From contig DASXUN010000021.1 of NCBI GenBank assembly GCA_036504815.1, forward strand, positions 1-64,000: a stretch of 64,000 nt of DNA, read 5' to 3'. The notes below the pieces were generated by a model. It was not told where the DNA came from. It ran no database searches and saw only the letters and a list, made by a program, of their open reading frames with translations. Both the position numbers and the translations under genes were made by a program. Below, piece after piece: positions 4,416 to 61,407 of this stretch (its first letter is position 1; the number at the start of each line of letters is the position of its first letter). This stretch comes from Gemmatimonadaceae bacterium. GTDB lineage: Bacteria > Gemmatimonadota > Gemmatimonadetes > Gemmatimonadales > Gemmatimonadaceae.

Positions 4416-4484
4416 TCGGCGAAATCTAATGCGAGCCACGCCTCGTGACGTGCGGCCGCACCGCCGGCCCCGACGCGTGTCGTG

Positions 4485-5369
4485 CTATCTCGTCACCGGC
4501 GCCGGCCGGTCCGATCCCGTGTCGAAGATGAAGCGGTAAGTCCCGTCGGGCTCGCGCCGCCAGACGGTGAGGTACTTCGAATACGACACCGTCCCCGGCG
4601 TCGGCTCCTTGCGGGCTTCGCCTATCGTGAAGCCCAGGCTGCCGTCGCGCGACGCCCGCGCGAGCGAGTCGATGGGCCCCCATTCGAAGCGTCCGTGGGG
4701 CGGAAACGGCGCGAAGGCTTCACGCACCTGCGCCGGTCCGCGCACGGGAACGTCGCGAATGCCAATCATCATCCCGTCAGCGGCAATCCATCGCGAGAAG
4801 GCGCCGGCCGGCCCGCCGGAATCGGCGCTGAAGCGGGCGAACGCGCGGTCGGCGTCGGCCATCGCTTGCGCGGCACGCGCCCGGCGCATGCCGCGCACTC
4901 CCGTCGAGCCGGGCGGGGCCGCCAGGGTGTCGGGGAGCGATCGCACGGCAGCCGGCGCGTAGAGCACCGAGAGGGCGACGATGCGCCAGTCGCCGCCGCG
5001 GGCGCGGCGCCAGCAGGTGACATACCGGCCGGCGGACGGATGCGCCGCGTCAGCGGACGGGCGCCGCACGACGCCGGTCGTGCACCCGAAACCGCCGTCG
5101 GGTGCCACCACCGCGTGCACTGAAGTCCAGATGGTGCCACGATCCGGTGAGACATCAGCGAGGTGCGCCTCGTACATCGACGCCCCGTGCAGGATCGGCC
5201 GATCCGGCAGCAGGACGGTCGCCGCGGGAGTCAGCGCCCGTCGCAGCGTGGTTGCGTTCGAAATCGCCGAACGCTCCGCCGCCATCAGGCTGGCCTTGGT
5301 CGTCGTGGTGTCCTGCGCCGCGAGCGACAGCGGCAGAACGGCACCGGCAAGCAGGCATCGAATGCGCAC
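4485..5369 (-). CDS. Exported protein with two SnoaL/DUF4440-like domains
   Basis: The 294-residue protein begins with a signal peptide (MRIRCLLAGAVLPLSLAAQ). The remainder looks like two NTF2-like alpha+beta cones in tandem. Each has an N-terminal helix of the type MAAERSAISN or MADADRAFARFSADSG, followed by a beta-rich portion ending in YVTCWRRARGGDWRIVAL in the first domain and YLTVWRREPDGTYRFIFDTG in the second. The second domain (about 165-290) is the better match to DUF4440. The first has lost much of the usual signature. No catalytic function can be inferred. It is followed by the lipoprotein/creatininase gene pair further upstream on the same strand. Confidence 0.72.
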   Translation of the reverse strand: MRIRCLLAGAVLPLSLAAQDTTTTKASLMAAERSAISNATTLRRALTPAATVLLPDRPILHGASMYEAHLADVSPDRGTIWTSVHAVVAPDGGFGCTTGVVRRPSADAAHPSAGRYVTCWRRARGGDWRIVALSVLYAPAAVRSLPDTLAAPPGSTGVRGMRRARAAQAMADADRAFARFSADSGGPAGAFSRWIAADGMMIGIRDVPVRGPAQVREAFAPFPPHGRFEWGPIDSLARASRDGSLGFTIGEARKEPTPGTVSYSKYLTVWRREPDGTYRFIFDTGSDRPAPVTR

Positions 5370-5426
5370 TGGAGACTCCTCCCTGTTGTCTCGTACCTAC
5401 GCCGGTTCACCGACGGAAGTTGCGCC

Positions 5427-6089
5427 CTAACGCCGGGCGCATCCGGCCAGGGCGACGTCGCCGACGCGGACTTCAGCCCGGAACGGGAACCACGCGTCGC
5501 TCATGCCGTCGCGGCAGCTTTCGCGGAGCAGGCCAACCTTGAGGGAATGCACCTTTCCGAGGGATCGCGTGCCGGCAACGGTCGTGAGCGCCCCTCGAAC
5601 ATCGGCCGGCTGCGCGTCGAAGACGAGTTCGCGCGGGGGTTCCGGACGCTCGAGCACCAGTTGCGTCCCATCGAAGGTCACGCGCCAGAACGGCTCGACG
5701 CCGTGCGCCACCCACTCGAACGGTTCACGGGGGCGGTCACAGTGAGGCCCCTCGGCGAGCGACGTCGCGAACAGCGTCTCGCGCACCACCACGCGTTCGT
5801 CCAGCGTGTCGGCCAGGAACTCCACGAACAACGAGTCGCGCAGCGAGCCGTTCACGGCGTTCACGGCCTCGCGCAGTCGCGACGCGGGGGTGTCGGCCAC
5901 GGGGCGCTCGACGGTCGTGCCGCAGGCGGCGAATCGCATGGTGCTGTCGGCGCTTACGAGGAGCGTGCCCCGCGCATAGGCCGCGCGTGTCGCCGACGCG
6001 CGCACGCTGTCCGCGGACGACGGCCTGGCGTCGGTGGAGGGCCCCCTGCAGGCGACAACGACGAGCAGCAGGGTGGCCAGGCGGGTCAT
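5427..6089 (-). CDS. Lipoprotein with COG3650-like C-terminal domain
   Basis: The 220-residue product starts MTRLATLLLVVVACRG, with a lipobox (VVAC) placing the lipid-modified Cys at residue 14. The C-terminal region has VEPFWRVTFDGTQLVLERP and ends CRDGMSDAWFPFRAEV...GCARR. This WxxxF...CxDGMSD...C pattern is what I associate with small heat-shock/META-associated lipoproteins of the COG3650 type; the assignment is from memory of the motif. The stop codon overlaps the start of the next gene in transcription order only at the 5' side: its ATG (6089) overlaps the creatininase stop by four bases, which points to translational coupling. Confidence 0.68.
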   Translation of the reverse strand: MTRLATLLLVVVACRGPSTDARPSSADSVRASATRAAYARGTLLVSADSTMRFAACGTTVERPVADTPASRLREAVNAVNGSLRDSLFVEFLADTLDERVVVRETLFATSLAEGPHCDRPREPFEWVAHGVEPFWRVTFDGTQLVLERPEPPRELVFDAQPADVRGALTTVAGTRSLGKVHSLKVGLLRESCRDGMSDAWFPFRAEVRVGDVALAGCARR

Positions 6090-6850
6090 CGGTACATGGC
6101 CGCCGGATCACCCTGCGACAGCTCCAACAGGAACTGCGCAATCCGTTCGGCCACCGCGTCCACGAACCGCGCCCCCTTGTCGGGCGTGGCGGCGCGCGGG
6201 TTGCCAATCCCCGTGTCCGCGCTGACGGTGGTCCACGGACGCTGCGTCCACACCCAGCGCTCACGAAATCCCGTCATGGCCGGCTTCTTCTCCGCGCCAT
6301 CGCCCGCCTCGGCGAGTGGACGCACCGTGTCGGGACGCAGGTGCAGCATCACGCTCGTCTCCAGCTCTCCCGCGTGGTCGCCCGGCTCGTCGAAATAGCC
6401 GCGACCATCGACGACCTGCCACCAGTTGAGCGCGCAGAGGAAGACGGGCGTGGTGGGCTGCAGTTCGCGCATCATCTGCTTGAAATCGTTGCCGCCATGC
6501 CCGTTGAAGAGCACGAACTTGCGCACGCCGGCGCGCTCCACCGAGGCTATGACGTCGGCCAGCACGCGCGCCTGCGTGCTCGGATTCATGTTGATGGCGA
6601 GCGGGAGGTCGAGCTGGCCCGTTTGCACGCCGAAGGGAACCGCCGGGAGGACGATGACGCGGGCGCCGCGCGCATTCGCGCGGGTGGCGGCCACGGCGGC
6701 GATGCCGTCGGCTTCCATGTTGTCGGTGGCGTACGGAAGGTGCCGGTTGTGCGGTTCCGTCGCCCCCCAGGGCAGCACCGCCACCTCATACTGCGTGCCG
6801 GCCACGGCGGGCCAATGTGCCTCGGCGAGGATGGACGGAGGTGTAGTCAT
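6086..6850 (-). CDS. Creatininase-family metal-dependent amidohydrolase
   Basis: The 254-residue cytoplasmic protein shows the creatininase family metal site: GATEPHNRHLPYATD supplies Glu32, His34 and Asp43, NGHGGND supplies the loop His, and DHAGELETS supplies the last Glu. Family members hydrolyse creatinine, formylated pyrimidine intermediates or small cyclic amides; the residue set confirms the fold but not the substrate. It is first in a two-gene unit with the downstream lipoprotein gene, joined by an ATGA overlap. Confidence 0.86.
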   Translation of the reverse strand: MTTPPSILAEAHWPAVAGTQYEVAVLPWGATEPHNRHLPYATDNMEADGIAAVAATRANARGARVIVLPAVPFGVQTGQLDLPLAINMNPSTQARVLADVIASVERAGVRKFVLFNGHGGNDFKQMMRELQPTTPVFLCALNWWQVVDGRGYFDEPGDHAGELETSVMLHLRPDTVRPLAEAGDGAEKKPAMTGFRERWVWTQRPWTTVSADTGIGNPRAATPDKGARFVDAVAERIAQFLLELSQGDPAAMYR

Positions 6851-6870
6851 GGCGAATCACGGGGATGGGG

Positions 6871-7257
6871 TTACTTCCGACAGAGGTGCTTGAGCGCGAC
6901 GTCGGCGAAGGTGCTGGAAAGCGCGGGGCCGAAGCCCGGCTTGCCGATGGTGCGGCGACTGTACTCCACGCCCTTGGCTTCGTTCAGGTAGAGCACGCTT
7001 TCCCTGGTCGCCACGAGCCCCTTGGCGCAATCGAACATGGCCAGCACGCGCGAACTCGTGATCTTGCCCTTGGGGGTATCGAGCGGCGGCGCGTAGGTGA
7101 CGCGCACGCGCGCCGTGACAATGCCGTCAGGCGCTTTCCTGACAGATTTTCCGTCAAGATACACGGAATTCCCTGTAGACGTCTTGCCAATTTCCTGCCA
7201 CTTTGATTGTGGGAGTACAGCAGCGGCGAGAAGCAGGAGTGGCGCCGTTGGATGCAT
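6871..7257 (-). CDS. Small exported protein, surface-adhesin protein E-like
   Basis: The 128-residue product has a short hydrophobic leader (MHPTAPLLLLAAAVLPQ) followed by WQEIGKTSTGNSVYLDGKSV and later AMFDCAKGLVATRESVLYLN. This two-part pattern, with W-x4-G...vylD..S and a central Cys, resembles the surface-adhesin protein E family first described in Haemophilus. In other bacteria these are uncharacterised small periplasmic proteins, so no adhesion role should be assumed. Two Cys remain in the mature part (in FDCAKG and HLCRK) and could pair. It precedes the creatininase gene by 20 bp on the same strand and may be co-transcribed. Confidence 0.65.
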   Translation of the reverse strand: MHPTAPLLLLAAAVLPQSKWQEIGKTSTGNSVYLDGKSVRKAPDGIVTARVRVTYAPPLDTPKGKITSSRVLAMFDCAKGLVATRESVLYLNEAKGVEYSRRTIGKPGFGPALSSTFADVALKHLCRK

Positions 7258-7412
7258 CGCTCACCTCAGGTGCGGTGGCGATGAAGGTACTCCGCCCGAC
7301 GCGTGCCGTCACGGGCGCGCCTAACGGAAGTGCCCGGCCCCGGTGGCGCCGGTTGCCCCCCTGCAGTGGATTCGGTCGCACACGCACCACACAAATCCAT
7401 CAGGAGGATGTA

Positions 7413-8672
7413 ATGCCTGCTTCCCTTGCCCCGATCAGCCCTGAGCTCTTCGCTGACTTCAAGGCCGGCAAGGAGACCGCGCTGGAACAGGTTTTCCGCG
7501 CGAACTTCGAAGCCTTCACGCAGGAGGCGAACGAAAAGCTGGACGATCCCGGCGGCGCCCAGAAGGTGGCCGCGAGCGCGTTCCTCGACATCTGGGATCG
7601 GCGCGCCAAGCTCGAGTCGGTCGATCAGATGCAGTCGCTGCTGCATCAGGCCGTGGCCGGGGAGGCGGCGCACGAGATGCGCCGTCGCGCGGCGGCCCAT
7701 CATATGGCGGGGAACCACGCCAAGACCCATGAGCCGACGCCCGCCGAGACGCTCGACCAGTGGTGGGCCAAGGTCTCCGGCGTGCTGCATGCCGCGCATG
7801 CGGATCCATCGGATGTCGCGAAACAGCGCGCCGAGCACAGCCGCCACGAGGCGGCCGCGCACATGAAGAAGGTCGCTGGCAAGAAGCGCACCGGCTTCTA
7901 CGGCGTCATGGTGATCGTCCTGGCGCTCGCCGCCGGGATCCCCCTCTGGTACCTCAACAAGGGCGCCGAGGGGACCAAGGCGCAGTCGCTGCTGAACAAG
8001 GAGGAAGCGAAGTCCATGCGGTCGAAGGACGGCCAGCGCGGCACCGTGACGATGGAGGACAGCGTCGTCGTGCGGCTCGGCTCCTCGACCTACGTGAAGT
8101 ACTCGGAGAGCTATCCGCTCGACGCGCGCGCGATGCAGATCATTGGCGTGGCCGCGATCAAGGCGCCCAAGCTTTCCTCGCCGCTGCTGGTGAAGGTGGG
8201 CAACGTCTGGGTGCACGCGAACGACGCCGAGTTCATTGGGCGTTCATTCATGGAAGACAGCAACTCGGCCATGCTGAAGACGCTGAGCGGCACCGTGACC
8301 GTGGTGGCCGGCAAGACCGAGAAGTCGCTGGCCGCGGGCGCGACGATGCTGGTGCTGAGCAACGGCACGTTCATGGATCTCGACGAGAATCGCGCCGAGT
8401 TCGCGTTCGGATGGATTGGCGGCAACTTCGACGCGCACAACCAGCCGCTGCGGAAGGTGCTGGCCGAATTCCGGAAGTGGTACGGCATCGAGATCACGCC
8501 GAAGGACAGCTCGTTCCTCGATCGTCCGGTGTCGATGTCCGCCTCGCTGGATTCCTCGAAGGTCGCGATGAAGGCGCTTGAGGAAGGGGGCGCCGTGAAG
8601 GTGACGCTGGTGTCCGAAACCAAGGCGACGCTCGTCGATAACGCGGCGAATGTGAAGAAGCCGAAGAAATAG
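7413..8672 (+). CDS. Sigma-region-2-like / transmembrane / FecR / DUF4974 fusion protein
   Basis: The start is fixed by AGGAGG at 7402-7407, giving 419 residues. Residues 10-95 resemble region 2 of ECF sigma factors: ELFADFKAGKETALEQVF, DPGGAQKVAASAFLDIWDRR, and AAHEMRRRAA. The acidic residues normally seen in the DxEDxVQE stretch are lost (GGAQKVAAS), and no region 4 follows. A single membrane segment lies at about 163-180. Residues about 205-320 match a FecR domain (GTVTMEDSVVVRLGSS, LLVKVGNVWVHANDAEF, LSGTVTVVAG). The C-terminus, about 343-410, matches DUF4974 (LRKVLAEFRKWYGIEI...KALEEGGAVKVTLVSE). So a degenerate sigma-like cytoplasmic module replaces the usual FecR anti-sigma domain. The role is inferred to be signal transduction or regulator sequestration. 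Confidence 0.8.
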   Translation: MPASLAPISPELFADFKAGKETALEQVFRANFEAFTQEANEKLDDPGGAQKVAASAFLDIWDRRAKLESVDQMQSLLHQAVAGEAAHEMRRRAAAHHMAGNHAKTHEPTPAETLDQWWAKVSGVLHAAHADPSDVAKQRAEHSRHEAAAHMKKVAGKKRTGFYGVMVIVLALAAGIPLWYLNKGAEGTKAQSLLNKEEAKSMRSKDGQRGTVTMEDSVVVRLGSSTYVKYSESYPLDARAMQIIGVAAIKAPKLSSPLLVKVGNVWVHANDAEFIGRSFMEDSNSAMLKTLSGTVTVVAGKTEKSLAAGATMLVLSNGTFMDLDENRAEFAFGWIGGNFDAHNQPLRKVLAEFRKWYGIEITPKDSSFLDRPVSMSASLDSSKVAMKALEEGGAVKVTLVSETKATLVDNAANVKKPKK

Positions 8673-8686
8673 TTGACCCCATGACG

Positions 8687-8720
8687 AAGGCCCGGTGGAC
8701 GTAACGTCTGCCGGGCCTTT
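8687..8720 (+). terminator. Intrinsic terminator of the FecR-fusion gene
   Basis: AAGGCCCGG (8687-8695) pairs with CCGGGCCTT (8711-8719) across a 15-nt loop. The stem is followed by a T-rich stretch (TTTGTCTTG). It sits 15 bp after the stop codon, as expected. Confidence 0.8.
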
Positions 8721-8787
8721 GTCTTGCGTGCGAATTGATGTCAGGTGAATGCTCACGCCGTGGCGGTGGTGTCCCCGACAAGTTCCG

Positions 8788-8802
8788 ACTAACTTTATTA
8801 GT
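8788..8802. promoter_or_regulatory. Candidate operator upstream of the desaturase gene
   Basis: ACTAA-N5-TTAGT is an inverted repeat 27 bp before the desaturase start, inside a short AT-rich patch in otherwise GC-rich DNA. It looks like a regulator site, but no cognate regulator is adjacent and the half-sites are short. Confidence 0.3.
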
Positions 8803-8829
8803 TGCGCATAAACTCAGGAGAAAGACCGA

Positions 8830-9876
8830 ATGGCCGTAACCGTCCCCGTGTCCGAAGCCCAGGCGACCTCCGCGGTGCCGCAGAATTGGCGTGCGCTGGT
8901 TGCGCCGTATGCGCAGGCCTCGCGGAACCGCTCGCTGTTCCAGTTGGTGACCACGGTCGCCCTGTTGCTGGTGGCGCTCGTGGCGCTGTACTGGGCGCGC
9001 AAGGTGTCGTACCTGCTGACGCTGGCGCTGTCGCTTCCCACGGCCGGACTGCTCACGCGGACGTTCATCATCATGCACGATTGCGGCCACGGTTCGTTCT
9101 TCACGAGCCGCCGGGCCAACGACATCGTGGGCGTGATCACGGGCTTCCTGACGTTCATGCCGTACGCCAAGTGGCGCCGCGAGCACGCGTTGCATCATGC
9201 GTCGTCCGGCGACCTGGACCGCCGGGGCATCGGCGACATCTACACGCTGACCGTGCAGGAGTACTTCTCGAAGGGATGGATGGGGCGGCTGGGCTACCGC
9301 CTGTCGCGGATGCCGGCGTTCCTGCTGACCATCGGCCCGGTGTACTTCTTCCTGCACCAGCGCTTCCCAACGCTGCGCAAGGGCGCGGCCCGCGACGAGC
9401 TCACGAGCGTGCTCCTCACCAACATCTCGGTGATCGGGCTCATTGCCATCCTCGTGATGGTCCTCGGCACGAAGACGCTGCTCACGACGTACCTGCCGGC
9501 GTACTATCTGTCGCTCCTCGGCGGCATCTGGCTCTTCTTCGCGCAGCACCAGTTCGAGGACGCGTACTGGGCCGAGCACGAGGAGTGGGACTATGCCAAC
9601 GCGGCGATTCGCGGGAGTTCGTATCTCAAGCTGCCGCGCATCATGCAGTGGTTCACCGGGAACATCGGCCTGCACCACGTGCATCACCTGGCCCCGAAGG
9701 TGCCGAACTACAAGCTCGAGGCGGCGCACAACTCGCACCCCATGTTCCAGCTGGCGCCGGTGCTCCAGATGCCCGATGCGGTGAAGGTGCTGCGGCTCGC
9801 GCTGTATGACGAGGAGCAGCGCAAGCTCGTCTCCTTCGGCGAGGCCCGGCGCCGCTGGCGCGTGCGGCGGGGGTAG
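8830..9876 (+). CDS. Membrane fatty acid desaturase
   Basis: The 348-residue protein has the three histidine boxes that hold the di-iron centre: HDCGH (83-87), HALHH (119-123) and HHVHH near the C-terminus. They are spaced around hydrophobic segments at about 37-55, 60-80, 150-165 and 200-235. This places it with acyl-lipid omega-3/delta-12-type desaturases that insert double bonds into membrane lipid acyl chains and often respond to cold. AGGAGA at 8816-8821 fits the start. It appears to be a single gene, preceded by the terminator at 8687-8720 and a possible operator at 8788-8802. Electron donor genes are not adjacent. Confidence 0.92.
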   Translation: MAVTVPVSEAQATSAVPQNWRALVAPYAQASRNRSLFQLVTTVALLLVALVALYWARKVSYLLTLALSLPTAGLLTRTFIIMHDCGHGSFFTSRRANDIVGVITGFLTFMPYAKWRREHALHHASSGDLDRRGIGDIYTLTVQEYFSKGWMGRLGYRLSRMPAFLLTIGPVYFFLHQRFPTLRKGAARDELTSVLLTNISVIGLIAILVMVLGTKTLLTTYLPAYYLSLLGGIWLFFAQHQFEDAYWAEHEEWDYANAAIRGSSYLKLPRIMQWFTGNIGLHHVHHLAPKVPNYKLEAAHNSHPMFQLAPVLQMPDAVKVLRLALYDEEQRKLVSFGEARRRWRVRRG

Positions 9877-9908
9877 CGCCTGGGGTTCGGTGCGCTTCGG
9901 GGAGTTCC

Positions 9909-10071
9909 TTCACCACGGAGGCACGGAGGACTGCTTGAGGGCCACGGAGGACGTCCACTTCTTGGGGTAACAACGCGCGCCACGCGATGTTCTGCGTGGC
10001 GCGCTGTCTTTACCCAGAGTCCTGGTGGTTCTCCGTGGCCCTCGGGTCCTTCTCCGTGCCTCCGTGGTGAA
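9909..10071. repeat. Long imperfect inverted repeat (hairpin-forming, MITE/REP-like)
   Basis: The arms 9909-9985 and 9994-10071 are nearly reverse-complementary over about 77 nt. The outer 20 nt (from TTCACCACGGAGGCACGGAG) match exactly, the CACGGAG word recurs within each arm, and the innermost 11 bp (GCGCGCCACGC / GCGTGGCGCGC) pair perfectly around an 8-nt loop. The element fills most of the gap between the convergent desaturase and carbonic anhydrase genes. No ORF lies inside. It could act as a bidirectional terminator or be a non-autonomous mobile element. Confidence 0.85.
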
Positions 10072-10105
10072 AAAGCCCAGTTCACCGGCGACGAAAGCCG
10101 GCTCG

Positions 10106-10738
10106 TCACGCACGCGTCACGGCGGCGATCTGCGCTTCGCACTCCGCCCATGACCGGGCGACGAGGCCGAGGTCCTTCAGGCGACCGTCGCTGAGGCCGT
10201 AGATCCAGCCGTGCACGGTGACGCGCTGTCCGCGTTCCCAGGCGTCGCGCATGATGGTCGTCTCGCAGACATTGCGCACCTGTTCCACCACATTGAGTTC
10301 GCAGAGGCGCCGCAGGCGCGTCTCGCCGTCACCGTGCGCGAGCAGGTGGTGGTACTTGTGCTGCACGTCCTGCACGTGGCGCAGCCAGTTGTCGATGAGT
10401 CCCATGCGGGCGTCCTCAAGCGCGGCGCGCACGCCGCCGCAGCCGTAGTGCCCGCAGACGATCACGTGCTTCACCTTCAGCGCGTCCACCGCGTACTGCA
10501 GCACCGACAGGCAGTTGAGGTCGGTGTGCACCACCACGTTGGCCACGTTGCGGTGCACGAACAGTTCGCCGGGGAGCAGGCCGACGATCTCGTTGGCCGG
10601 CACGCGGCTGTCGGAGCAGCCGATCCAGAGGTACTCGGGCGTCTGCTGCTCGAGCAGCTCGCCGAAGAACGCGGGATTCTCCGCCGCGATGCGGGCGGCC
10701 CAGCGGCGGTTGTTTTCGAAGAGTGAGTGCAGGGGCAC
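10106..10738 (-). CDS. Beta-class carbonic anhydrase
   Basis: The 210-residue protein carries the beta-carbonic anhydrase zinc site: GCSDSRVP with Cys41 and the Asp43-Arg45 dyad, and VIVCGHYGCGG with His97 and Cys100. HRNVANVV is the usual intervening motif. It interconverts CO2 and bicarbonate in the cytoplasm. Length and motifs match the bacterial CynT/Can type. The gene lies 66 bp downstream of the histidine-phosphatase gene on the same strand and converges with the desaturase gene across the inverted repeat. Confidence 0.95.
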   Translation of the reverse strand: MPLHSLFENNRRWAARIAAENPAFFGELLEQQTPEYLWIGCSDSRVPANEIVGLLPGELFVHRNVANVVVHTDLNCLSVLQYAVDALKVKHVIVCGHYGCGGVRAALEDARMGLIDNWLRHVQDVQHKYHHLLAHGDGETRLRRLCELNVVEQVRNVCETTIMRDAWERGQRVTVHGWIYGLSDGRLKDLGLVARSWAECEAQIAAVTRA

Positions 10739-10804
10739 GAGGGCGGGGTGCTGGAGTCGGGTGCAGGGGCCGCGGAAAACGCGGCCTGAGACGAACCGAG
10801 GGCG

Positions 10805-11383
10805 CTAGCGCATGGCGCCTGCCGCGCAGTTGGCCGCGCCTGGCGGATCGGGAACGCCGTACTGGGCGCGAATGAGCGACGCCGCGCCGTGCGACGGGAG
10901 GCGGATGATGTACAGTCCAGCGTACTGCGCGTCGCACAGTTCGGGAAGGCGCGGACCGCCGAGCGCCGCCACGATGAGCGCCACGGTGTTGCTGTGGCCG
11001 ACGACCAGCACGGCGTTTCCCCTGGCTTTCCGCACCGCGTCGGCGACGGCCATCGCGTGCGCCTCGGTGGATGCGCCAAAGGGGACCACATGCGCGGTGA
11101 GCTGCCGGGCCTCGACCACCGGCGCCGCGGTTTCGATGGTGCGCTTGCGCGGCGTCACCAGCACGTCCGTGACGTGCGCGTCGCGCAGGGCCACCGCCAG
11201 TGCCGCGGCGCGTGCTTCCCCGGCCTCGCTCAACGACGGATCCGGATCCGTGACGCTGGCTTTTTCGGCATGGCGCACGACGAAAACCAGCTTGTCGCCG
11301 ACAGCGCTGCCCTGCGCAGGCACGACGGCCGGCGGCGCAAGCATGACGGCGACGAGGAGCATGGCCCGGGACAGCAATCTCAT
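10805..11383 (-). CDS. Exported histidine phosphatase-family protein
   Basis: The ATG at 11383 was chosen because it gives a proper signal peptide (MRLLSRAMLLVAVMLAPPAVVPAQG); the open frame continues upstream without one. The mature part begins VFVVRHAEK, the RH-x catalytic motif of the phosphoglycerate mutase/histidine phosphatase superfamily. The second catalytic His is in VLVVGHSNTVA. The domain is short (192 residues in total), like SixA-type or other small members. It is likely periplasmic, with an unknown phospho-substrate. Cys residues are few (CDAQ, NCAAG). Confidence 0.84.
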   Translation of the reverse strand: MRLLSRAMLLVAVMLAPPAVVPAQGSAVGDKLVFVVRHAEKASVTDPDPSLSEAGEARAAALAVALRDAHVTDVLVTPRKRTIETAAPVVEARQLTAHVVPFGASTEAHAMAVADAVRKARGNAVLVVGHSNTVALIVAALGGPRLPELCDAQYAGLYIIRLPSHGAASLIRAQYGVPDPPGAANCAAGAMR

Positions 11384-11534
11384 CACGACTCCGGGAACTT
11401 GGGGGGTCAGGCACCCGCGCATACGATAAGCCCGTTGCGCGCTTTTCGCCTCTGGGGCCGCGGCGATACGTTTCGGAACCCCCAGCGTGCGCCGGGGTGC
11501 CACTCGGGGTTACCGCTGCCGCTTGGAGCGAAGT

Positions 11535-12986
11535 ATGACTCGCCGTTCAATCCTGCTGTTCATCGCGGTCGCGCTGGCGGTCCTTCCCGCCTCGTCGGCC
11601 TTTGCCCAGCGCGCGCGGCGTTCGCCGGCTCGCCGCGTCCCGGCGAAGCCAGCCGAGTCCCCGCCCAACGTGGTGATCTTCCTCTCCGACGACCTCGGCA
11701 TCGGTGAGATCGGCCCGTGGGGGCAGGCGGAACTGCTGACGCCCAACATCGACCGGCTTGCGCGCGACGGCATGAAGCTGACGGAGATGCGATCCAGCGC
11801 GGCGGTGTGCGGTCCGGCCCGCTGTTCGCTGATGACGGCGCTCCACAACGGCCACTGCCGGCTCGACGACAACGACAATGACTATCTGCGCGCAAGCGAC
11901 CTGACGCTCGCCGAGCGATTGAAGGCCAGGGGCTACGCGACGGGACTTTTCGGCAAGTGGGGGCTCAGCTGGGACAGCGAGCGGGAAAGCTGGCCGAATG
12001 CCAAGGGGTTCGACGCCTTCTTCGGGTTCCGCGACCAGAAGCACGCACACAATTACTTCCCCGAGTATCTCATCAGCAACGGCGACTCGGTGAGCACGGG
12101 GAACGTGGTGCCGTCGCCGGGGCCAATGGGCACCGGTCGCGCGACGACGCGCGTGGCGTATGCGCCGGACCTGATCGGGGCCAGGGCATTCGCCTGGATG
12201 CGGGCAAATGCGAAGAAACCGTTCCTGCTCTACTGGGCCACGACGCTTCCGCACATCAACAATGAGGGCGCGCGCGGATATGACGACGGCGGATACGAAG
12301 TCACCGACCTGGGACCGTACGCCGACAAGCCGTGGCCGATGGCCAAGAAGAGCTATGCGGCGCAGATCTGGCGGCTTGACCGCGACCTTGGGCACGTGCG
12401 CGCCCTGCTGGATTCGCTCGGCGTCGCCAAGCGCACGCTGATCATCTTCCTTTCCGACAACGGCGCCACGATGTTGCGCGGCGCCGACGACGGCACCACC
12501 ACGCAGATTGGGCGCTGGTTCAACGGCACGATGAACTATCGCGGCTACAAGGGCGACCTGTACGAGGGCGGCCTTCGGGTGCCGGCAATCGCCGTCTGGC
12601 CGGGGAAGGTCAGGCCGGGCAGCACCTCGGCCGTGCGTGCCGACTTCACCGACGTGCACGCGACGATCGCCGCCGCCGCCGGATTGCCGGAGCAAAAGGG
12701 CATCGATGGCCGCTCGCTGCTCCCGGCGCTCATCGGCAAGGGCGCCGTGAAGACGAAGGATGCCTTCGTCTGGTTTTCCCCGGACCGCAATCAGAGCGCG
12801 GTGCTCTTCGGCGGATGGAAGGCTGTCTGGATGCGCGATACCCTGCGCCTGTTCAACGTGACGGCGGACCCGGGCGAGACCAAGGACCTCGCCCCGTTGC
12901 AGCCGGAGGTCGTGCAGCGGCTCACCGCCATTCGCGACAGCGCCGACCGGCGCGGCGCGCATCCGGAACCACCGAAGCAGCCGTAG
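11535..12986 (+). CDS. Exported sulfatase (arylsulfatase family)
   Basis: The 483-residue product has a signal peptide ending SSAFAQ and a proline/arginine-rich linker. The sulfatase fold then starts at [11 protein letters not shown], with the paired Asp metal ligands. [11 protein letters not shown] contains the C-x-P-A-R sulfatase signature, so Cys92 should be converted to formylglycine; a formylglycine-generating enzyme is not in this window. GKWGLSW and the later [11 protein letters not shown] (second metal cluster) are also present, with [11 protein letters not shown] between them. It hydrolyses a sulfate ester outside the cytoplasm; the substrate is unknown. It is divergent from the histidine-phosphatase gene. 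Confidence 0.93.
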
Positions 12987-36993: not shown

Positions 36994-38397
36994 CTACCCT
37001 CGCGGCCGGTTCTTGGTCCAGATGAGGACGACGGCGCAGTAGGATCCCGACAGGCTTCCGCGGACCGCCGGAGCGTTCACCCCCTTTGCGATCCGGTACT
37101 GTACGGGTGCCAGCAGAATGTCCGGCCAGGTTTCGATGGCCAGTACTTCGCTGGGTGGTGCGAGCATGTCCGCGTCCGCGAATCCGCCGGCCTGCAGAAC
37201 GTCATCCACATAGACTGCAGTAAATTGGCACCCCGCCCGCCCAATGATCTTGCTCTGTCCGCTATAAACAAACCCGCGCGCCTCCCGCATCACATCGGAG
37301 GTGAGGATCGCCGACCGTAGCGCCGGCGCGCCGGGCAGGAATGTGGTTCCCATGCCGATCCGCTTGCGCCGCAGCACCTCATCCAGCAGTCGCAGGTTGG
37401 CGTCCTTCTTCCCCACCACGGTCACCGCCTCGAGCGCCTGCACCTGGCTGCGGAGTGCGATCGTCGGCATCGCGCTCGCCCCCTCCGGGGCGTTCACGAG
37501 CAGGCTTTGCGGCTCACTGCCGATGGCGCGAGCCTCAACCACCCAACTGCCGGGCGGCAGGTCGCCCAGCGTGAACTCGCCGCGGGCGATGGCCGCCTCG
37601 CGGCCGAGCGCCGGCACGACGACGCGTCCCGACTCCACGGCCTTGCCGTTCACGCGCGCGACGCGCCCGCGAATGATGGCGTCGCCATGCGACTCGGCGG
37701 AATCGGCGAGCGCAATCTCCAGCCGCCCGATGCCGCTTGGCGGGATGGGCGTCACCGACCCGATGATGCGGTGATGCCCCGGGCTGGTCACGTCCAGTTC
37801 CAGCGGCGCGTCGATGGGTAGATGACAGACCAGGAACGCGCCGTCGTCCTCGATGCTCGCCGTCGCGCGCTCGGTCACGGTGCGGTAACTCCCGGAGTCG
37901 AGCGCGAAGGCCTTCCAGCTCAGCCGCACCGCCGTGCCGGCCACCGCATGCTGCTGGCGCGCATCGCGCGCATATCCCACCAGCATCCCCGACGACGACT
38001 CGGCGTCCTCGTCGCCGCAGCGCAGGGTGCGGATCGTGCGGCTCGACGGCACAGCGAGATCCGCCATCACCTCAGCGTCAGCATCGAGCGCGATGCCGCG
38101 CGTGGGCGCGTCGAGCCCCAGCGCGGTGAGCGCGTCGTGGTAGAAGCCGAGCGTGTATTGGCCGGGGGCGAGGCCGATGATACGATAGCGGCCGGCGCTG
38201 TCGGTCTGCGTGCTATGCGGTGCCTGCGTGGCGCCCGCCGCCGCGAGCTGCACCGCAGCGCCGGCGAGTGGGCGCGCCGCCACGGAATCGTAGACCACAC
38301 CATACACGGCGCCGCGCGGCGCCGCGACCGGCACCTGCGCGGCGAGTGGTCCCGCCGCCGCCAACGCCAGCCACCACCCGCTTCGCCCGACCGGCAT
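36994..38397 (-). CDS. Long CarboxypepD_reg / barrel-less TonB-plug protein
   Basis: The 467-residue protein has a signal peptide (MPVGRSGWWLALAAAGPLAAQ) and a CarboxypepD_reg-like beta-sandwich (GAVYGVVYDSVAARPLAGAAVQL...TDSAGRYRIIGLAPGQYTLGFYH). A central beta-rich region includes a second regulatory-like unit (ARGEFTLGDLPPGSWVVEARAIG). The final part, from about 320, reads as a TonB-dependent receptor plug (LEAVTVVGKKDANLRLLDEVLRRKRIGMG, CQFTAVYVDDVL, EVLAIETWPD). It stops at YCAVVLIWTKNRPRG, with no beta-barrel. The last part is related to the shorter proteins at 47075-47902 and 60480-61310. It is in a same-strand run with the lipoprotein gene at 38412. Confidence 0.8.
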   Translation of the reverse strand: MPVGRSGWWLALAAAGPLAAQVPVAAPRGAVYGVVYDSVAARPLAGAAVQLAAAGATQAPHSTQTDSAGRYRIIGLAPGQYTLGFYHDALTALGLDAPTRGIALDADAEVMADLAVPSSRTIRTLRCGDEDAESSSGMLVGYARDARQQHAVAGTAVRLSWKAFALDSGSYRTVTERATASIEDDGAFLVCHLPIDAPLELDVTSPGHHRIIGSVTPIPPSGIGRLEIALADSAESHGDAIIRGRVARVNGKAVESGRVVVPALGREAAIARGEFTLGDLPPGSWVVEARAIGSEPQSLLVNAPEGASAMPTIALRSQVQALEAVTVVGKKDANLRLLDEVLRRKRIGMGTTFLPGAPALRSAILTSDVMREARGFVYSGQSKIIGRAGCQFTAVYVDDVLQAGGFADADMLAPPSEVLAIETWPDILLAPVQYRIAKGVNAPAVRGSLSGSYCAVVLIWTKNRPRG

Positions 38398-47070: not shown

Positions 47071-47074
47071 CGAG

Positions 47075-47902
47075 TTACCGACGCGCCCGCGTCCAGATCG
47101 CGACGAAACCGCACGATCCTCTGCCGCCTATCGGAATCAGGTCGACTGGGGCATTAGCCGTGCTTGGGTAGATCTCTATACCCATCACGGATCGCACGTC
47201 CACGATGTTGTCCAGAGAGAGTCGTAGGACGTCCGATCCGACCTGCCGGGAACCACTTGGATTGATGGACTGCGGCACTTCTGAACTGATGTCGTCCTGG
47301 AGGGTGCCCCGCACCCGTTGGCCGTCAACGAGGATCGTCATCGGACACCGGCCGCGGCCGAGAAGTACGGTCTGCGTACGCTCGCGTAACCGCGAGACGT
47401 AACCAACTGACACTGAGCGCCGGCCTTGAAACATTTGAGACAGGTAGATAGCTCCGCGAGCGTCCAATTCTTCTGGCGTGACGAACTCCGCGGTGAATGC
47501 CCCACGCTTTGCGCGCTCGAGGCGATCATAGAACCCTCGGCTTGCTAGTGGCGTTGCATAAGTGGCCATCACCCTCACGGTGTCCAGAATGGGAGTGAGT
47601 CTTGTCAACGTCACGTGCACGTCCCCATCGGAGGTTGAACGAGGAAGTCGCGCATCGAAAAGTCGGAATCCCATTCGCCGGACCACGACGGAGACTGTAT
47701 CGCGCCTAGCAACAAGAAACACCGCGGCGCCGGTTGAGTCGGCCGTGACAGCATTCCCGCCATTGATGCTCACCCACGCGTACGGTACGGGGTGTCCTTC
47801 GCCTGTCGTCACGCGTACTATGGTGCGCACGGGGCTCTGCGCGCGCACCAGTGACGCGACTCCGCACAGGAGGCAGATCCATGACCATGTGATTCTGCTC
47901 AT
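47075..47902 (-). CDS. Cassette 1: short CarboxypepD_reg / barrel-less TonB-plug protein
   Basis: The 275-residue product has a signal peptide (MSRITWSWICLLCGVASLVRAQ), a regulatory-like beta-sandwich (VRVTTGEGHPVPYAWVSING...VVVRRMGFRLFDA) and a plug-like half (LDTVRVMA, GFYDRLERAKRGAF, FVTPEELDARGAIYLSQMF, LGRGRCPMTILVDGQRV, VMGIEIYPS, ending SCGFVAIWTRARR). No beta-barrel follows. Its motifs line up in order with the protein at 60480-61310. A TTG at 47908 is an alternative start, better spaced from GGGGAG. It is the third gene of the cassette, after a Cys-rich peptide and a DsbA-like protein. Outer-membrane or periplasmic location is inferred. Confidence 0.8.
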   Translation of the reverse strand: MSRITWSWICLLCGVASLVRAQSPVRTIVRVTTGEGHPVPYAWVSINGGNAVTADSTGAAVFLVARRDTVSVVVRRMGFRLFDARLPRSTSDGDVHVTLTRLTPILDTVRVMATYATPLASRGFYDRLERAKRGAFTAEFVTPEELDARGAIYLSQMFQGRRSVSVGYVSRLRERTQTVLLGRGRCPMTILVDGQRVRGTLQDDISSEVPQSINPSGSRQVGSDVLRLSLDNIVDVRSVMGIEIYPSTANAPVDLIPIGGRGSCGFVAIWTRARR

Positions 47903-47915
47903 CCGCAATTCGACA

Positions 47916-48659
47916 TCACTCCCCTACTAATTCATGATCCGCGTCACCTTCGTCGTACTTCATCGGACTCGCAGGTTCACTATCGAGTAGGATCCTTGCC
48001 GGCGCGCAATGCATTGATGGTTCGGAGCAATTGCGAGTCATCGGGTGGCCTCGCGAACCGCCAACCACTAACAACACCGTGGGGGTGCCTTCGATTGCCA
48101 GTGCCTGGCCGAGCTGTCGACCACCTTCAATCGCTGTGTGAGAGTTCTCGTCACGAACACATCTGGCGAATGCGGCGGTATCGGTGATGCCAGCATCTCT
48201 CGCGTATGCCGTCCATTCCTTCAGGCCAAACGAGTCCTGTTTCGCGAAGAGCAGATCATACATTGACGATAGGCGTGACTGTCGTGCGGCGCAATCTGCC
48301 GCGCGTGCGGCCGCATTCGCAAAGCGATGCATCGCAAGCGGGTAGTGCACCATGCGCAACGCAAACGCACTCGGCTCCTTTTGCTTCAGGTGCATGACGC
48401 GTTTATGAAACTCTTGACACGCCGGGCATTCGAAGTCAGTGAACACGACAATCTCGACGGACGCAACGCTGTCGCCAATCGCCACTGAGGCGTCCCTCAA
48501 CTTCTTCCAGCTTGACTCGCGTTTCAGTGCTTCTACCGGCACGCTTGGGCCAGGTTTGGCGGATGCGCCGGAGAACTCACGGTGAATGGCGATGCCAACG
48601 AGCCCAACGGCAGCCACCGTAAGCGTGATCGTCAGTACGCGATCAAGTGTCGTGTCCAT
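47916..48659 (-). CDS. Cassette 1: membrane-anchored DsbA-like thioredoxin, probable frameshift near its end
   Basis: Residues 7-25 form a membrane anchor. The DsbA-like fold follows with VEIVVFTDFECPACQEFHKRV (C78-P-A-C81), HYPLAMHRFANAAARAADCA, LLFAKQDSFGLKEWTAYA and the cis-Pro loop IEGTPTVLL (Pro193). After about residue 196 the reading frame turns into sequence unlike any thioredoxin. Shifting one base at about 48069-48074 gives SGWRFARPPDDSQLLRTINAL and a stop at 47982-47980. That matches the end of the paralogue at 59695-60396 (NGRLYWSPPDTGELTRLASAA) and gives about 226 residues. A one-base deletion, or a sequencing error, is the simplest reading. It precedes the plug gene. Confidence 0.82.
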   Translation of the reverse strand: MDTTLDRVLTITLTVAAVGLVGIAIHREFSGASAKPGPSVPVEALKRESSWKKLRDASVAIGDSVASVEIVVFTDFECPACQEFHKRVMHLKQKEPSAFALRMVHYPLAMHRFANAAARAADCAARQSRLSSMYDLLFAKQDSFGLKEWTAYARDAGITDTAAFARCVRDENSHTAIEGGRQLGQALAIEGTPTVLLVVGGSRGHPMTRNCSEPSMHCAPARILLDSEPASPMKYDEGDADHELVGE

Positions 48660-48762
48660 GATGAGTCACCCCTCCGATGACCACATCGTCAGTCGGAGAT
48701 AGAGGCTGCCGTCTCAGGACGCAAGGCGGGGATCTCTGTCAAGTAGCTTCCTGGCTTAGCCA

Positions 48763-49041
48763 CTACTGCTCGTAATAGCAGAGCACCTTCCAGTGTCCGG
48801 GCGGGCAGTCGTCGTTCGGAGGTTCTACACACGCACCAGCGTAAGTTGTGTAGCCGCATACGAACCTGCACTGCATGTCATACTCCGGTAGCACTTCAAG
48901 ACCCGGGCAGAATCCTCCTGCTTGCCCGCAAATGCCGCATTGTACCGGTGATGCGGCGGCGGGCATTCGCTGACCAAGAAGGGCTGCGACCGAGAGTATG
49001 CACGTCGCGGCGGCCTTCAGCATCAGTCTTCGTCTCGTCAT
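48763..49041 (-). CDS. Cassette 1: exported peptide with eight cysteines
   Basis: GGAGGAG lies 8 nt before the ATG at 49041. The 92-residue product has a signal peptide (MTRRRLMLKAAATCILSVAALLG...MPAAAS) and a mature part of about 60 residues with Cys35, 38, 45, 58, 62, 71, 79 and 88. The spacing is C-x2-C-x6-C-x12-C-x3-C-x8-C-x7-C-x8-C. QCGIC, CGYTTYAGAC, CPPG and the terminal CYYEQ have counterparts in the peptide at 59333-59632, where all eight Cys align. It is the first gene of a cassette with a DsbA-like protein (103 bp downstream) and a plug protein. No known toxin or bacteriocin motif is recognised. Confidence 0.82.
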   Translation of the reverse strand: MTRRRLMLKAAATCILSVAALLGQRMPAAASPVQCGICGQAGGFCPGLEVLPEYDMQCRFVCGYTTYAGACVEPPNDDCPPGHWKVLCYYEQ

Positions 49042-49407
49042 GACTTGGCTCCTCCAAGATACTGAGTGTGAACAAGAACACAGCGGTGCGGCGGCAAAGC
49101 CGCCATTGGATCTGCAGAGCAAGCCGCTTTGGCGACAACTCAGGGGGCGCCATTCCTTTTGCCGAACTCAATATCCCCCCCCCGCTCCACCTATCTCGCA
49201 AGCCCCAAAATGTGTCAGGCGACGGTTGGGGCAGACCGTTACGTGATGTAATGGCGCTCGGCAATGTTCTGCCTTAGCTTGGGGTCACGGCGCCGCGCAA
49301 TGTACGGTGGTGCCTCCGTCCCGACCTCACGGTTGCCCCCCGTCATAACGCCCAGGCCGCCATGAACTGAGTGGCGCATTGCGCGCCTGGCTTGATAAGG
49401 GGGACCC
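49042..49407. other. Divergent intergenic region between cassette 1 and the AraC-type gene
   Basis: No convincing gene lies in these 366 bp. GGCGGCAAAGCCGCC (49090-49104) is a 6-bp stem hairpin in the expected leader of the peptide gene. TTACGTGATGTAA (49239-49251) is a short inverted repeat that could be an operator. A run of nine C occurs at about 49175-49183. A clear promoter could not be chosen on either strand. Confidence 0.5.
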
Positions 49408-49989
49408 TTGCGAGACCTTGCAACGGGTGAGCCGAGCGTCGTGTCATTCGCACGGTACTCGCCTAATCGTGAGTCGGTGTCACGGGGGACACATGATCGG
49501 CGTCGGGCACCCGCCGCGGATGAGGATATCGCCAAACTGATCGCCCGCGCTAACGACCGATTCCCATCAGAAGCGGTCGACGCTTGGTGCGCGTTGCGGA
49601 CTACGACGAACCCAATCGCGCATCAACTCGTCGACAATATCTTCCTGACCGGCGTCTCACAGATCTGCGCCAAACGCTTGGCGAGCCACCTCGGCATCAG
49701 CCGATCTTCACTGCACGGACTGTGCAAGAAGAACGCTGGCTGTTCGGTCAAGGTGATTCTGAGTCGCGCACGTTTCGCCGTCGTCGCAAACGTCCTCGCG
49801 CGCACGCCCACGCCGACCGGCGATGTCGCTTGCCTTGTCGGTTTCATTGACGCTGGGTCCCTTCGGCGCTTGGTTCGGCGACAGTCGGGCTTGGCGCTCA
49901 GGGAATTTCAATGCCACGTGCAGATACATGGAGCAGGATTCGTGTTGACCCAGGCTACGAGATTTGCGCCGAGCACATCAACACAATAG
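49408..49989 (+). CDS. AraC-type helix-turn-helix regulator (divergent from cassette 1)
   Basis: The C-terminal half matches the AraC DNA-binding domain: KRLASHLGISRSSLHGLCKKNAGCSVKVILSRARFAVVANVLARTPTPTGDVACLVGFIDAGSLRRLVRRQSGLALREF, containing the two helix-turn-helices and the G-F-x-D-x-G/S-x-x-x-R motif. The first 85 residues are not recognised. A TTG at 49408 after AAGGGGG is used here; a GTG at 49441 is possible. It is about 366 bp away from and divergent to the Cys-rich peptide gene and so may regulate it; this is inferred from position. At 193 residues it is shorter than classical AraC proteins. Confidence 0.75.
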   Translation: MRDLATGEPSVVSFARYSPNRESVSRGTHDRRRAPAADEDIAKLIARANDRFPSEAVDAWCALRTTTNPIAHQLVDNIFLTGVSQICAKRLASHLGISRSSLHGLCKKNAGCSVKVILSRARFAVVANVLARTPTPTGDVACLVGFIDAGSLRRLVRRQSGLALREFQCHVQIHGAGFVLTQATRFAPSTSTQ

Positions 49990-50059
49990 CACTCCACGCT
50001 ACAGCGTCGCCGGAAGGAACGATTCTTCGCGGAAAGCTCTGACAGCGTCTAGGCTCTGC

Positions 50060-58744: not shown

Positions 58745-59332
58745 GTCCTCGCAACGCTTCTTCATAGCACCCCGTACGACCGTGTGCGACGGAGGATGAC
58801 CTCACGTCGCCTAGGTTTGGCGCGCGTAGTAGAGGATCGCGTGCCCATGTATCGTGCCGACGTGACCGCCGACAACGTCGAGCACGTCGAGAGGCCCCCT
58901 ACCGTCACCGAAGCGCAGGCTAGTAGGCCGCAGCCGCGGTGCGTTAGCTATGACGATCAGGGCGCCTGCACATTTTGTCTGTCCACGGAGTGTCATCAAC
59001 AGCTCCCCGGCATTCGTCTTACACTTGCGCTCTAGCTCACACCCAACCAGTGATGACCAGTACATGCAGCAACTTCTCACAGTGGCGCCATACTGAGGAG
59101 ACAGTGTTCATGCGGCACGACTACCTCGACGCCTCGCTACAATCTCTCGTTCCGCGACCTTAACGCCGGGAGCAGGCGAGCCACGCACCAACCTCGCCAT
59201 CAGCAAGCATTATACATTGCCACTGCCGCGTTACTTGCCGTAATAGTCTATAACCGGTAGTTTCTGCGGAGTCGATAGCGGCGTGTCCGCAGTCGCTATC
59301 GGCCGTTGCTCACTCACTAACGAGGAGTTCAT
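58745..59332. other. Gene-poor interval in front of cassette 2
   Basis: These 588 bp look distinct from the flanking genes and hold no gene that I can support. Two short reading frames (58784-59035 plus, 58811-59080 minus) overlap each other and have no family signature. TTGCCA (59217-59222) and TAATAG (59241-59246), 18 nt apart, are a possible promoter for the Cys-rich peptide. CGATAGCG and CGCTATCG (59273-59280, 59294-59301) form a hairpin in the leader. Confidence 0.5.
59273..59301 (+). promoter_or_regulatory. Hairpin in the leader of cassette 2
   Basis: CGATAGCG (59273-59280) pairs perfectly with CGCTATCG (59294-59301) around a 13-nt loop, 31 nt before the peptide start codon. Cassette 1 has a different hairpin 48 nt before its peptide gene. 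Either could influence mRNA stability or be an operator; the sequences are not alike. Confidence 0.4.
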
Positions 59333-59632
59333 ATGCGTGCCCCGATAAGGCGAGCGCGGCAGCTGCTTGGCATCATCGCGCTCGCGGCCCTGTAGTCAGC
59401 TTCCACCGCACTTGCCGCGCCGTCGTCGCGCAGCACGGTGGATCAGTGCGGGCTCTGCACCAACCAGATTGAGTGTCCATTCGACTTGACAGTGTATGAC
59501 TCCGCATGTCAGCAGCACTGTGGTCCCGCTTCGTATGCAGGTGGTTGCTGGCGGCCAGGAGGGCCCGAGTTCCCGCCGGGATGCGCGTCTGGCGGAGGCC
59601 AGAGTTTCGTTGTCTGCTACGAGCCGGACTAG
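59333..59632 (+). pseudogene. Cassette 2: eight-cysteine exported peptide with in-frame amber codon
   Basis: GAGGAG (59322-59327) is well placed for the ATG at 59333, which encodes MRAPIRRARQLLGIIALAAL, a normal signal-peptide start. An in-frame TAG at 59393-59395 interrupts the hydrophobic core. The frame then continues SASTALAAPSS and a mature part with eight Cys (codons 39, 42, 48, 59, 63, 72, 84, 95) that align with those of the peptide at 48763-49041. QCGLC, CGPASYAGGC, a PPG motif near the seventh Cys and the terminal CYEPD are shared. A GTG at 59438 could start a leaderless fragment. Nonsense mutation (TCG to TAG), read-through or a sequence error are all possible. Confidence 0.8.
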
Positions 59633-59694
59633 CCTACGCTGACCTGGTGCGCGGACCACCGGGTCAACCCATCCGACATTTCCGAGGATTGAAC

Positions 59695-60396
59695 ATGCAG
59701 CTATCGAGAGCGGCTGCTATTGCCGACCGCGTTACGAGCTTCGCGATTGCTCTCTGTGCCATGGTAGTTGTCATTGCCATCGCTCGACGCGAGTTCTTCG
59801 GTACACAGGCCGCCAAGGCTCAGGATGCTTCCGGCGTACGCCCACCCCGCGTTATCGCGGAGTGGGCCGAGGTGCTTGCCACCGCTCGACAACCCTACGA
59901 TAGCGCAGCGCTACTCACTGTAGTGACGTTTTTTGATGCGGAGTGTCCGTTCTGTAGGAGGTATGAGGCATCTCTTCGTGCATGGCGGAACCAGATGGGA
60001 CCGCGGGTTACCCTCTTGGCTGTGCACTTTCCGCTCCCGCAGCATCGCTTCGCACGCCCCGCTGCGAGAGCGTTGGAGTGTGCGCGAGTACAGGGTCGCT
60101 TTGATCCTATGCTAGCTCACGTGTTCGCTTCACAAGATTCTCTCGGTCTGCGACCGTGGGATGACATCGCATCAGACGCAGGCGTATCGCGACTCCAAGA
60201 TTTTCGCGAATGCGTACGCGCCGCCGGCCCGATACCTGGCGTTGAAGAAGGTGTGTCGCTCGGGATTCGACTCGGCATCTCAGGCACGCCTGCGGTCATC
60301 GTGAACGGTCGCCTGTATTGGAGTCCACCAGACACCGGCGAACTCACTCGACTCGCGAGCGCTGCTGGATTGTTCGCCGCTTCAAGCGGGCATTGA
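59695..60396 (+). CDS. Cassette 2: membrane-anchored DsbA-like thioredoxin
   Basis: GAGGA (59683-59687) supports the ATG at 59695. The 233-residue protein has a membrane anchor (VTSFAIALCAMVVVIAIARREFF) and then a thioredoxin/DsbA-like domain: VVTFFDAECPFCRRYEASL (C-P-F-C active site), LAVHFPLPQHRFARPAARALECAR, MLAHVFASQDSLGLRPWDDIASDAG and cis-Pro ISGTPAVIVNGRLYW. The motif order matches the cassette-1 protein closely up to its frameshift. The catalytic domain should face the periplasm and could form or reshuffle disulfides in the neighbouring Cys-rich peptide. A DsbB-like partner is not visible nearby. Confidence 0.9.
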   Translation: MQLSRAAAIADRVTSFAIALCAMVVVIAIARREFFGTQAAKAQDASGVRPPRVIAEWAEVLATARQPYDSAALLTVVTFFDAECPFCRRYEASLRAWRNQMGPRVTLLAVHFPLPQHRFARPAARALECARVQGRFDPMLAHVFASQDSLGLRPWDDIASDAGVSRLQDFRECVRAAGPIPGVEEGVSLGIRLGISGTPAVIVNGRLYWSPPDTGELTRLASAAGLFAASSGH

Positions 60397-60479
60397 GGAA
60401 CAAGTCAGCACATCTGTCAAGCCAGATGTCGCGTTGCTGGTGCCATAGGCCCTTCAGGAATCGTCCGGTATCGCTAGGA

Positions 60480-61310
60480 ATGAGCGAACAAATGCGTCTC
60501 GCTGACAGAGTTCGGTCCTGTTGCCCCGCGTGTAACATCGCGGCGCGCTTGATCGTGATGCTGGGTCTGATCGGGTCTAGCGCACTCGGACAGGAAGTTC
60601 GTACGACGGTCAGGATCACCGACCAATATGCTCGGCCGGTTCCGTTTGCACTCGTCAGCGTAGCGTCCGGTGGCTCGAAGGTGGCCGATGATAGTGGCCA
60701 CGTCATACTGATCGTTCCGCGAGCCGACTCGCTACGAATCTACGTGCGCCGCATGGGATTCTTACCGTATGACGGCTGGACGCGTCGTGCAGCGCGCGAC
60801 GGGAGTTTCCACGTCGTACTACAGACAGTCGCTCGACAGCTCGACACTGTCTCAGTCTCGACCGAACGGAACGTCACACTCGAGCGCACCGGTTTCTACG
60901 ATCGCCTTCGCCGTGTGCAGCGCGGTGCGTACGCTGCCCGGCTGATCACGCCTGAAGAACTTGAGATGCGGAACCCGATCAGGATCACGCAGATGTTCAC
61001 GGGCGAGACAATGGTGAGAGCGACGCCAGCTGGAGGCGGACGTGCGATACTGCTTGGCCGGGGCCCGAAGTGTGCCATGACCGTTCTTGTGGACGGTATG
61101 CTCTTGCGAGGCACTTGGGAGGAGGCAATTAATCGTCGTGATGGTGGACCCGAAGGCACTCGGATGTACTTGGACGATCTGGTTCCGGCTTCCTCGGTTG
61201 CTGCCATTGAGATCTATGGTAGCAATGTGTCTGCCCCTGCTGAACTGCAGCAGATCGCCGGTGGCAACGGCTGCGGAATCGTCGCCATTTGGACGGGAGG
61301 TCGTCGGTAG
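60480..61310 (+). CDS. Cassette 2: short CarboxypepD_reg / barrel-less TonB-plug protein
   Basis: From the ATG at 60480 the product is 276 residues: signal peptide (LIVMLGLIGSSALGQ), regulatory-like domain (VRITDQYARPVPFALVSVASGG...YVRRMGFLPYDGW), then LDTVSVSTE, GFYDRLRRVQRGAY, LITPEELEMRNPIRITQMF, LGRGPKCAMTVLVDGMLL, VAAIEIYGS and the terminal GCGIVAIWTGGRR. The same blocks occur in the same order at 47075-47902. It ends where a TonB-dependent receptor's plug would join its barrel, and no barrel follows. An ATG at 60492 is an alternative start. It is third in the cassette, 83 bp after the DsbA-like gene. Confidence 0.82.
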   Translation: MSEQMRLADRVRSCCPACNIAARLIVMLGLIGSSALGQEVRTTVRITDQYARPVPFALVSVASGGSKVADDSGHVILIVPRADSLRIYVRRMGFLPYDGWTRRAARDGSFHVVLQTVARQLDTVSVSTERNVTLERTGFYDRLRRVQRGAYAARLITPEELEMRNPIRITQMFTGETMVRATPAGGGRAILLGRGPKCAMTVLVDGMLLRGTWEEAINRRDGGPEGTRMYLDDLVPASSVAAIEIYGSNVSAPAELQQIAGGNGCGIVAIWTGGRR

Positions 61311-61407
61311 GAAGTCGACGGGTAGCAGTCTCGCTCTGCCGGCGTTTGGCGCTGCGTCGCTGGAATATCAGGCAACGGTGCTCATTCGTGGTCGCCTTCC
61401 GCGATCT

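Follow-up and report, generated by a model that had tools for sequence, protein, structure and literature searches.

Across the Gemmatimonadota, a group of DsbA-like thioredoxins is encoded beside short exported peptides that are rich in cysteine, and this peptide-DsbA pair is the stable, conserved core of a locus in which the third gene is exchangeable, specifying either a plug-type protein or a six-bladed beta-propeller. We favour, with a probability of around 0.55, the reading that these loci produce a secreted, disulfide-stapled peptide, oxidation of which falls to its dedicated DsbA, with the exchangeable envelope partner either handling or sensing it. The locus was found in a window of 64,000 nt (positions 1 to 64,000 of contig DASXUN010000021.1, assembly GCA_036504815.1) from a member of the Gemmatimonadaceae, which contains two cassettes of this type.

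An exported peptide with eight cysteines

Cassette 1 lies on the reverse strand of the window and begins with a gene (48,763-49,041) whose ATG is preceded by GGAGGAG. It encodes a 92 aa protein composed of a signal peptide, which itself includes one cysteine, and a mature part of around 62 aa containing a further eight. The first-pass annotation had described a 92-residue exported peptide with eight cysteines, followed on the same strand by genes for a DsbA-like protein anchored in the membrane and for a CarboxypepD_reg/plug protein; all three ORFs were recovered in this order, and the eight-cysteine spacing was found to recur in seven homologues of the peptide, from four genomes, hence the pattern is not the product of chance. 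In all seven of these close homologues the spacing is C-x2-C-x5-9-C-x9-12-C-x3-C-x7-10-C-x4-11-C-x6-13-C, the first pair of cysteines in the cassette family always being arranged as C-x2-C and the fourth and fifth as C-x3-C. Identity within the alignment of the seven homologues is 84% in the cysteine columns, as against 23% in all other columns, a contrast that is to be expected if selection acts on disulfides. Peptides at a greater distance retain around six of the cysteine columns in an automatic alignment, and the C-x2-C motif is not always kept outside the closest family.

The peptide has no family match in either Pfam or NCBIfam, a profile of the peptides found no relative in the PDB, and the AlphaFold2 model is of low confidence (pLDDT 64). 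The closest peptide family has a patchy distribution, being present in eight of 179 family genomes, and no close orthologue of the cassette 1 peptide was found in the genus. Searching 298 genomes with the single peptide sequence gave few good matches and mostly noise above an E value of 1e-3; as the peptides are too divergent for this type of search, they were traced through the adjoining DsbA instead.

Linkage of the peptide to a group of DsbA proteins

The second gene of cassette 1 (47,916-48,659, reverse strand) encodes a DsbA-like thioredoxin with a single transmembrane segment. Matches to the Pfam families Thioredoxin_4 (3e-19) and DSBA (1e-10), along with a CPAC active site, a GTPTV loop that carries the Thr-cis-Pro motif and a hydrophobic N-terminal segment, place it in the DsbA-like class (PF01323/PF13462). 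However, this copy is probably broken: a one-base frameshift at around 48,065-48,072, directly past the cis-Pro loop (GTPTVL), leaves the final 50 or so residues of the 247 aa ORF out of frame, with the expected ending found in the neighbouring frame. This weakens the claim that cassette 1 is a working, closed unit. A third cassette in the same genome has a dsbA gene that breaks within a few codons of the same point, and programmed frameshifting was considered as an explanation; it was rejected, as the shifts are in opposite directions, there is no common slippery site and the frames are open in relatives.

A profile built from four cassette DsbA proteins was used to search 150 genomes of the phylum, and a short exported ORF with six, eight or ten cysteines adjoins many of the matches. 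For counting, a strict peptide was taken to be an ORF of 45-130 aa that starts with ATG or GTG, is preceded by a Shine-Dalgarno-like site, and has a signal-like N terminus and at least six cysteines after residue 22. Such a gene lies beside dsbA at 29 of the 52 loci of the cassette DsbA group (26 upstream and three downstream), compared with none of 24 other DsbA loci (Fisher test, 5e-7), whilst 0.4 upstream would be expected from the background frequency at which ORFs of this type occur in that DNA; no strict peptide was found at the remaining 23 group loci. The peptide or plug genes, rather than DsbA, had led to eight of the 52 loci; among the 44 recruited by DsbA alone, 22 have a strict peptide. 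When a collection of named genomes was searched, the peptide was present at six of the nine best DsbA matches and at none of the 71 others. Eight of these nine are labelled as Gemmatimonadota (Gemmatimonadaceae, Longimicrobiales and Gemmatimonadetes), and the other as Steroidobacter, possibly through a binning error.

In the phylogeny, which is poorly resolved overall, 21 rows of other DsbA proteins form a separate clade (99/91) with which no peptides are associated. These housekeeping-type enzymes have the DsbA fold in common with the cassette proteins, and CPxC and Thr-cis-Pro motifs are equally common amongst them; they differ in having no peptide gene, and one of them adjoins a VKOR-like gene. 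The combination of CPxC with Thr-cis-Pro would not in itself distinguish an oxidase from an isomerase or a reductase.

Given its conserved cysteine framework and its linkage to an oxidoreductase, the pair can be classed as a disulfide-rich exported peptide with a dedicated oxidoreductase. The initial suggestion that synthesis of the peptide is coupled to its oxidative folding is therefore borne out with regard to the linkage, which extends throughout the phylum and is absent from other DsbA genes; the oxidation itself is what this linkage would imply.

An exchangeable envelope partner

The third gene of cassette 1 (47,075-47,908, reverse strand, with the start ATG probably at 47,902) encodes a protein with an N-terminal signal peptide, a CarboxypepD_reg domain and a plug domain. 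Taken alone, it matches CarboxypepD_reg weakly (0.005) and Plug not significantly; across 31 aligned members of its family, CarboxypepD_reg matches 18 and Plug (PF07715) ten, and a search of the PDB with a profile of these 31 found a TonB-linked receptor (E value 4e-4). Both are the N-terminal domains of TonB-dependent receptors, in which the plug is followed by a 22-strand beta-barrel. By contrast, the cassette 1 protein stops at 277 aa, directly after the plug-like region, and hence has no barrel. The family also differs from these receptors in having a conserved C terminus (CGxVAIWTGxR) and in often being encoded by stand-alone genes. The AlphaFold2 model of the protein is of low confidence (pLDDT 54).

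Counting genes within 1 kb of dsbA and on the same strand, a partner is present at 37 of the 52 group loci, with plug-type proteins at 12, six-bladed beta-propellers at 25 and both together at none, where an overlap of 5.8 loci would be expected (P 8e-5); 15 loci have neither. The same exclusion is evident in the 44 loci recruited by DsbA alone, six of which have a plug and 24 a propeller, again with no overlap (P ~0.006, calculated by hand). Among those propeller and plug neighbours that were scanned, DUF5128 was matched by seven and TolB_like by one. Hence, of the three-gene unit that had been proposed, the peptide-dsbA pair is stable, whereas the plug gene is not obligatory, propellers being found at twice as many loci.

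A census of the Plug Pfam domain found it in every genome, and most of the short plug proteins of the family are encoded away from peptide and dsbA genes alike. The plug was considered as a marker of the system and rejected, since most plug loci lack a peptide. Elsewhere in the window (36,994-38,397, reverse strand) is a 467 aa CarboxypepD_reg protein with a plug-like C terminus (WTKNR) and native composition, at which no peptide gene was seen.

Insertion in small islets

These loci occupy small islets, and their divergence is rapid. GC content is 58-61% across both cassettes in the window, with the first islet at around 59-60%, compared to around 67% in the surrounding DNA, and when genes of the window itself were used to train a codon model, it gave a near-complete tiling of genes in which the only gaps, 47,071-50,059 and 58,745-61,407, are the two cassette regions. 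The first islet separates argG from a convergent VIT-like gene, an interval of 2,989 bp that is empty in two congeners (G222 and G174), where the genes are likewise convergent and around 90 bp apart; in two further congeners, different genes occupy the gap. This site is variable in the genus (L327-L330), being either empty or filled with 1.7 kb or ~6 kb of different genes. Near cassette 2 are genes for a SulP-type transporter and a hemolysin-III-type protein, the homologues of which are just 65 bp apart in G114; in the window, the interval between them holds one further gene besides the cassette. No convincing terminal repeats were found at the ends of the islets, and a scan for promoters and terminators gave no signal over shuffled sequences. 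The first islet also contains an ORF for an AraC-type regulator (49,408-49,989, forward strand; HTH_18, 3e-11), divergent from the peptide gene, which is at most a candidate component of the cassette.

One explanation for such loci is antagonism, in which a bacteriocin-like peptide, matured by the DsbA, would act against relatives, whilst the plug or propeller would confer immunity or mask a receptor; this is a guess, and we think it unlikely. The fast divergence, the patchy distribution amongst family genomes and the presence of several diverged copies per genome are consistent with it, and islet insertion and decaying copies are what might be anticipated of arms-race loci. However, neither an exporter dedicated to the peptide nor a typical immunity protein was seen, PADLOC returned no match of any kind, and kin-recognition or signalling peptides would fit the same features.

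Damaged and intact cassettes

The genome holds three cassettes of identical gene order, each of which has a single lesion: a frameshift in dsbA in cassettes 1 and 3, and a nonsense mutation in the peptide gene of cassette 2; the first-pass annotation had not registered this damage. Cassette 2 (59,333-61,310 of the window, forward strand) is composed of a peptide gene (59,333-59,632) that encodes the eight-cysteine framework and has a TAG codon at 59,393-59,395 in the signal-peptide part, an intact dsbA with a CPFC motif (59,695-60,396), and a gene for a CarboxypepD_reg/plug protein lacking a barrel (60,492-61,310); cassette 3 is located at G000:C21:589,116-591,245. DNA identity between the cassettes is low, at about 70-85% over short pieces, hence they are not recent copies of one another. 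One dsbA (in cassette 2) and two peptide genes (in cassettes 1 and 3) are intact across the three, which suggests either decay or the sharing of one enzyme. The lesions may be assembly errors, though the gene model shows the neighbouring genes to be free of breaks of this type.

That every cassette has a lesion whilst the genes around them are open, and that their composition is foreign, might alternatively mean that these are decaying orphan islets, the three genes being linked by co-transfer only and now functionless pseudogenes in this genome. This is improbable, as the linkage of peptide and DsbA is found in many genera, in which the genes are open and the cysteines conserved, and the remaining frames of all three cassettes are themselves open. 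About equally improbable is the alternative that the CxxC and CxxxC motifs bind metal or shuttle electrons, with the DsbA keeping the peptide reduced or exchanging electrons with it: the invariance of both motifs in the cassette family and an active site compatible with either redox direction would permit this, but the even cysteine counts and exported location favour disulfides, CxxC is not always retained beyond the closest family and no recurrent histidine ligand pattern was seen.

An intact cassette, flanked by xerC-like and hslV-like genes (L041), is present in another genome of the same family, which has a second cassette elsewhere (L188). Two further DsbA proteins of the group are encoded in the genome from which the window was taken, at G000:C20 around 50944 (L179) and G000:C4 around 136399 (L177); one has its own eight-cysteine peptide and a 1,249 aa neighbour, and the other lies beside a long plug-type protein, with no peptide found. 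A cluster of a different type is present at L034 (G151, 3781-11774, reverse strand), where an eight-cysteine peptide adjoins a propeller-like gene and a fragment of a DsbA gene; close by is a 59 aa peptide with eight cysteines that adjoins thioredoxin-like and MauE-like genes. Upstream of dsbA at L174 (~3625-4278) are three tandem exported peptides with six cysteines each (CC...CC), an arrangement that suggests local peptide duplication.

Relation to known systems

Encoding a small exported disulfide peptide beside a thiol oxidoreductase is an arrangement also known from disulfide-containing bacteriocins and glycocins, such as sublancin with BdbA/BdbB. However, the loci described here were not seen to include an ABC exporter, a glycosyltransferase or a leader protease; what they have instead is an envelope protein and a DsbA-like enzyme, along with a signal peptide of the Sec type, and no sequence relation to these systems was found. 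Nor do the loci examined resemble those of RiPPs, which combine a tailoring enzyme with a leader-peptidase exporter; they contain dsbA, a plug or propeller gene and housekeeping neighbours. Two of the peptides match TIGR04117, a family of radical SAM targets, weakly (0.004), and no radical SAM gene was noticed.

In the Bacteroidota, NVEALA peptides (PF14055) occur near lipoproteins with a six-bladed propeller, of the BF3164/TolB_like type (PF15869). These peptides are short, exported and contain cysteine, as do those of the Gemmatimonadota, and propellers of the DUF5128 or TolB_like type are the partners at 25 loci here; on the other hand, DsbA is the constant partner in the present loci, and plug-type proteins replace the propeller at 12 of them. 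The NVEALA profile had no match in the window's own genome or among 23 of the peptides.

The pairing of an exported disulfide peptide with its own oxidoreductase is already known; as far as we have seen, this peptide family and its partners are apparently undescribed. The view that the locus was not a described system accordingly held in a search of the open literature, outside the scope of which lie most subscription papers and bioRxiv preprints.

Proposed function and significance

In the reading that we favour, that of a disulfide-stapled peptide oxidised by its own DsbA, export would be by Sec, as suggested by the signal peptide. Once in the periplasm, the disulfides, of which there would be four if all eight cysteines pair, might be formed or proofread by the adjoining DsbA, anchored in the inner membrane; it is the genetic linkage that points to this role. 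The folded peptide would then act either extracellularly or within the envelope, and the envelope partner, whether the plug protein, as here, or a six-bladed beta-propeller, may bind, carry or sense it. Within the window's genome, where the cassettes appear to be decaying, the intact dsbA of cassette 2 and the peptides of cassettes 1 and 3 could complement each other. More tentatively, secreted disulfide-stapled peptides with their own DsbA and one of two partners might constitute, throughout the phylum, a fast-evolving system of recognition or antagonism between Gemmatimonadota strains, although this wider proposal is on balance doubtful.

If the favoured reading is true, these loci would add to the disulfide-rich peptides of bacteria a large family that comes with its own folding enzyme, and would do so in a phylum from which secreted peptides are so far almost unknown. 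The dedicated DsbA provides a search handle for peptides that are too short and divergent to be found by sequence search, and the existence of two alternative partners makes the binding target of the peptide a directly testable question.
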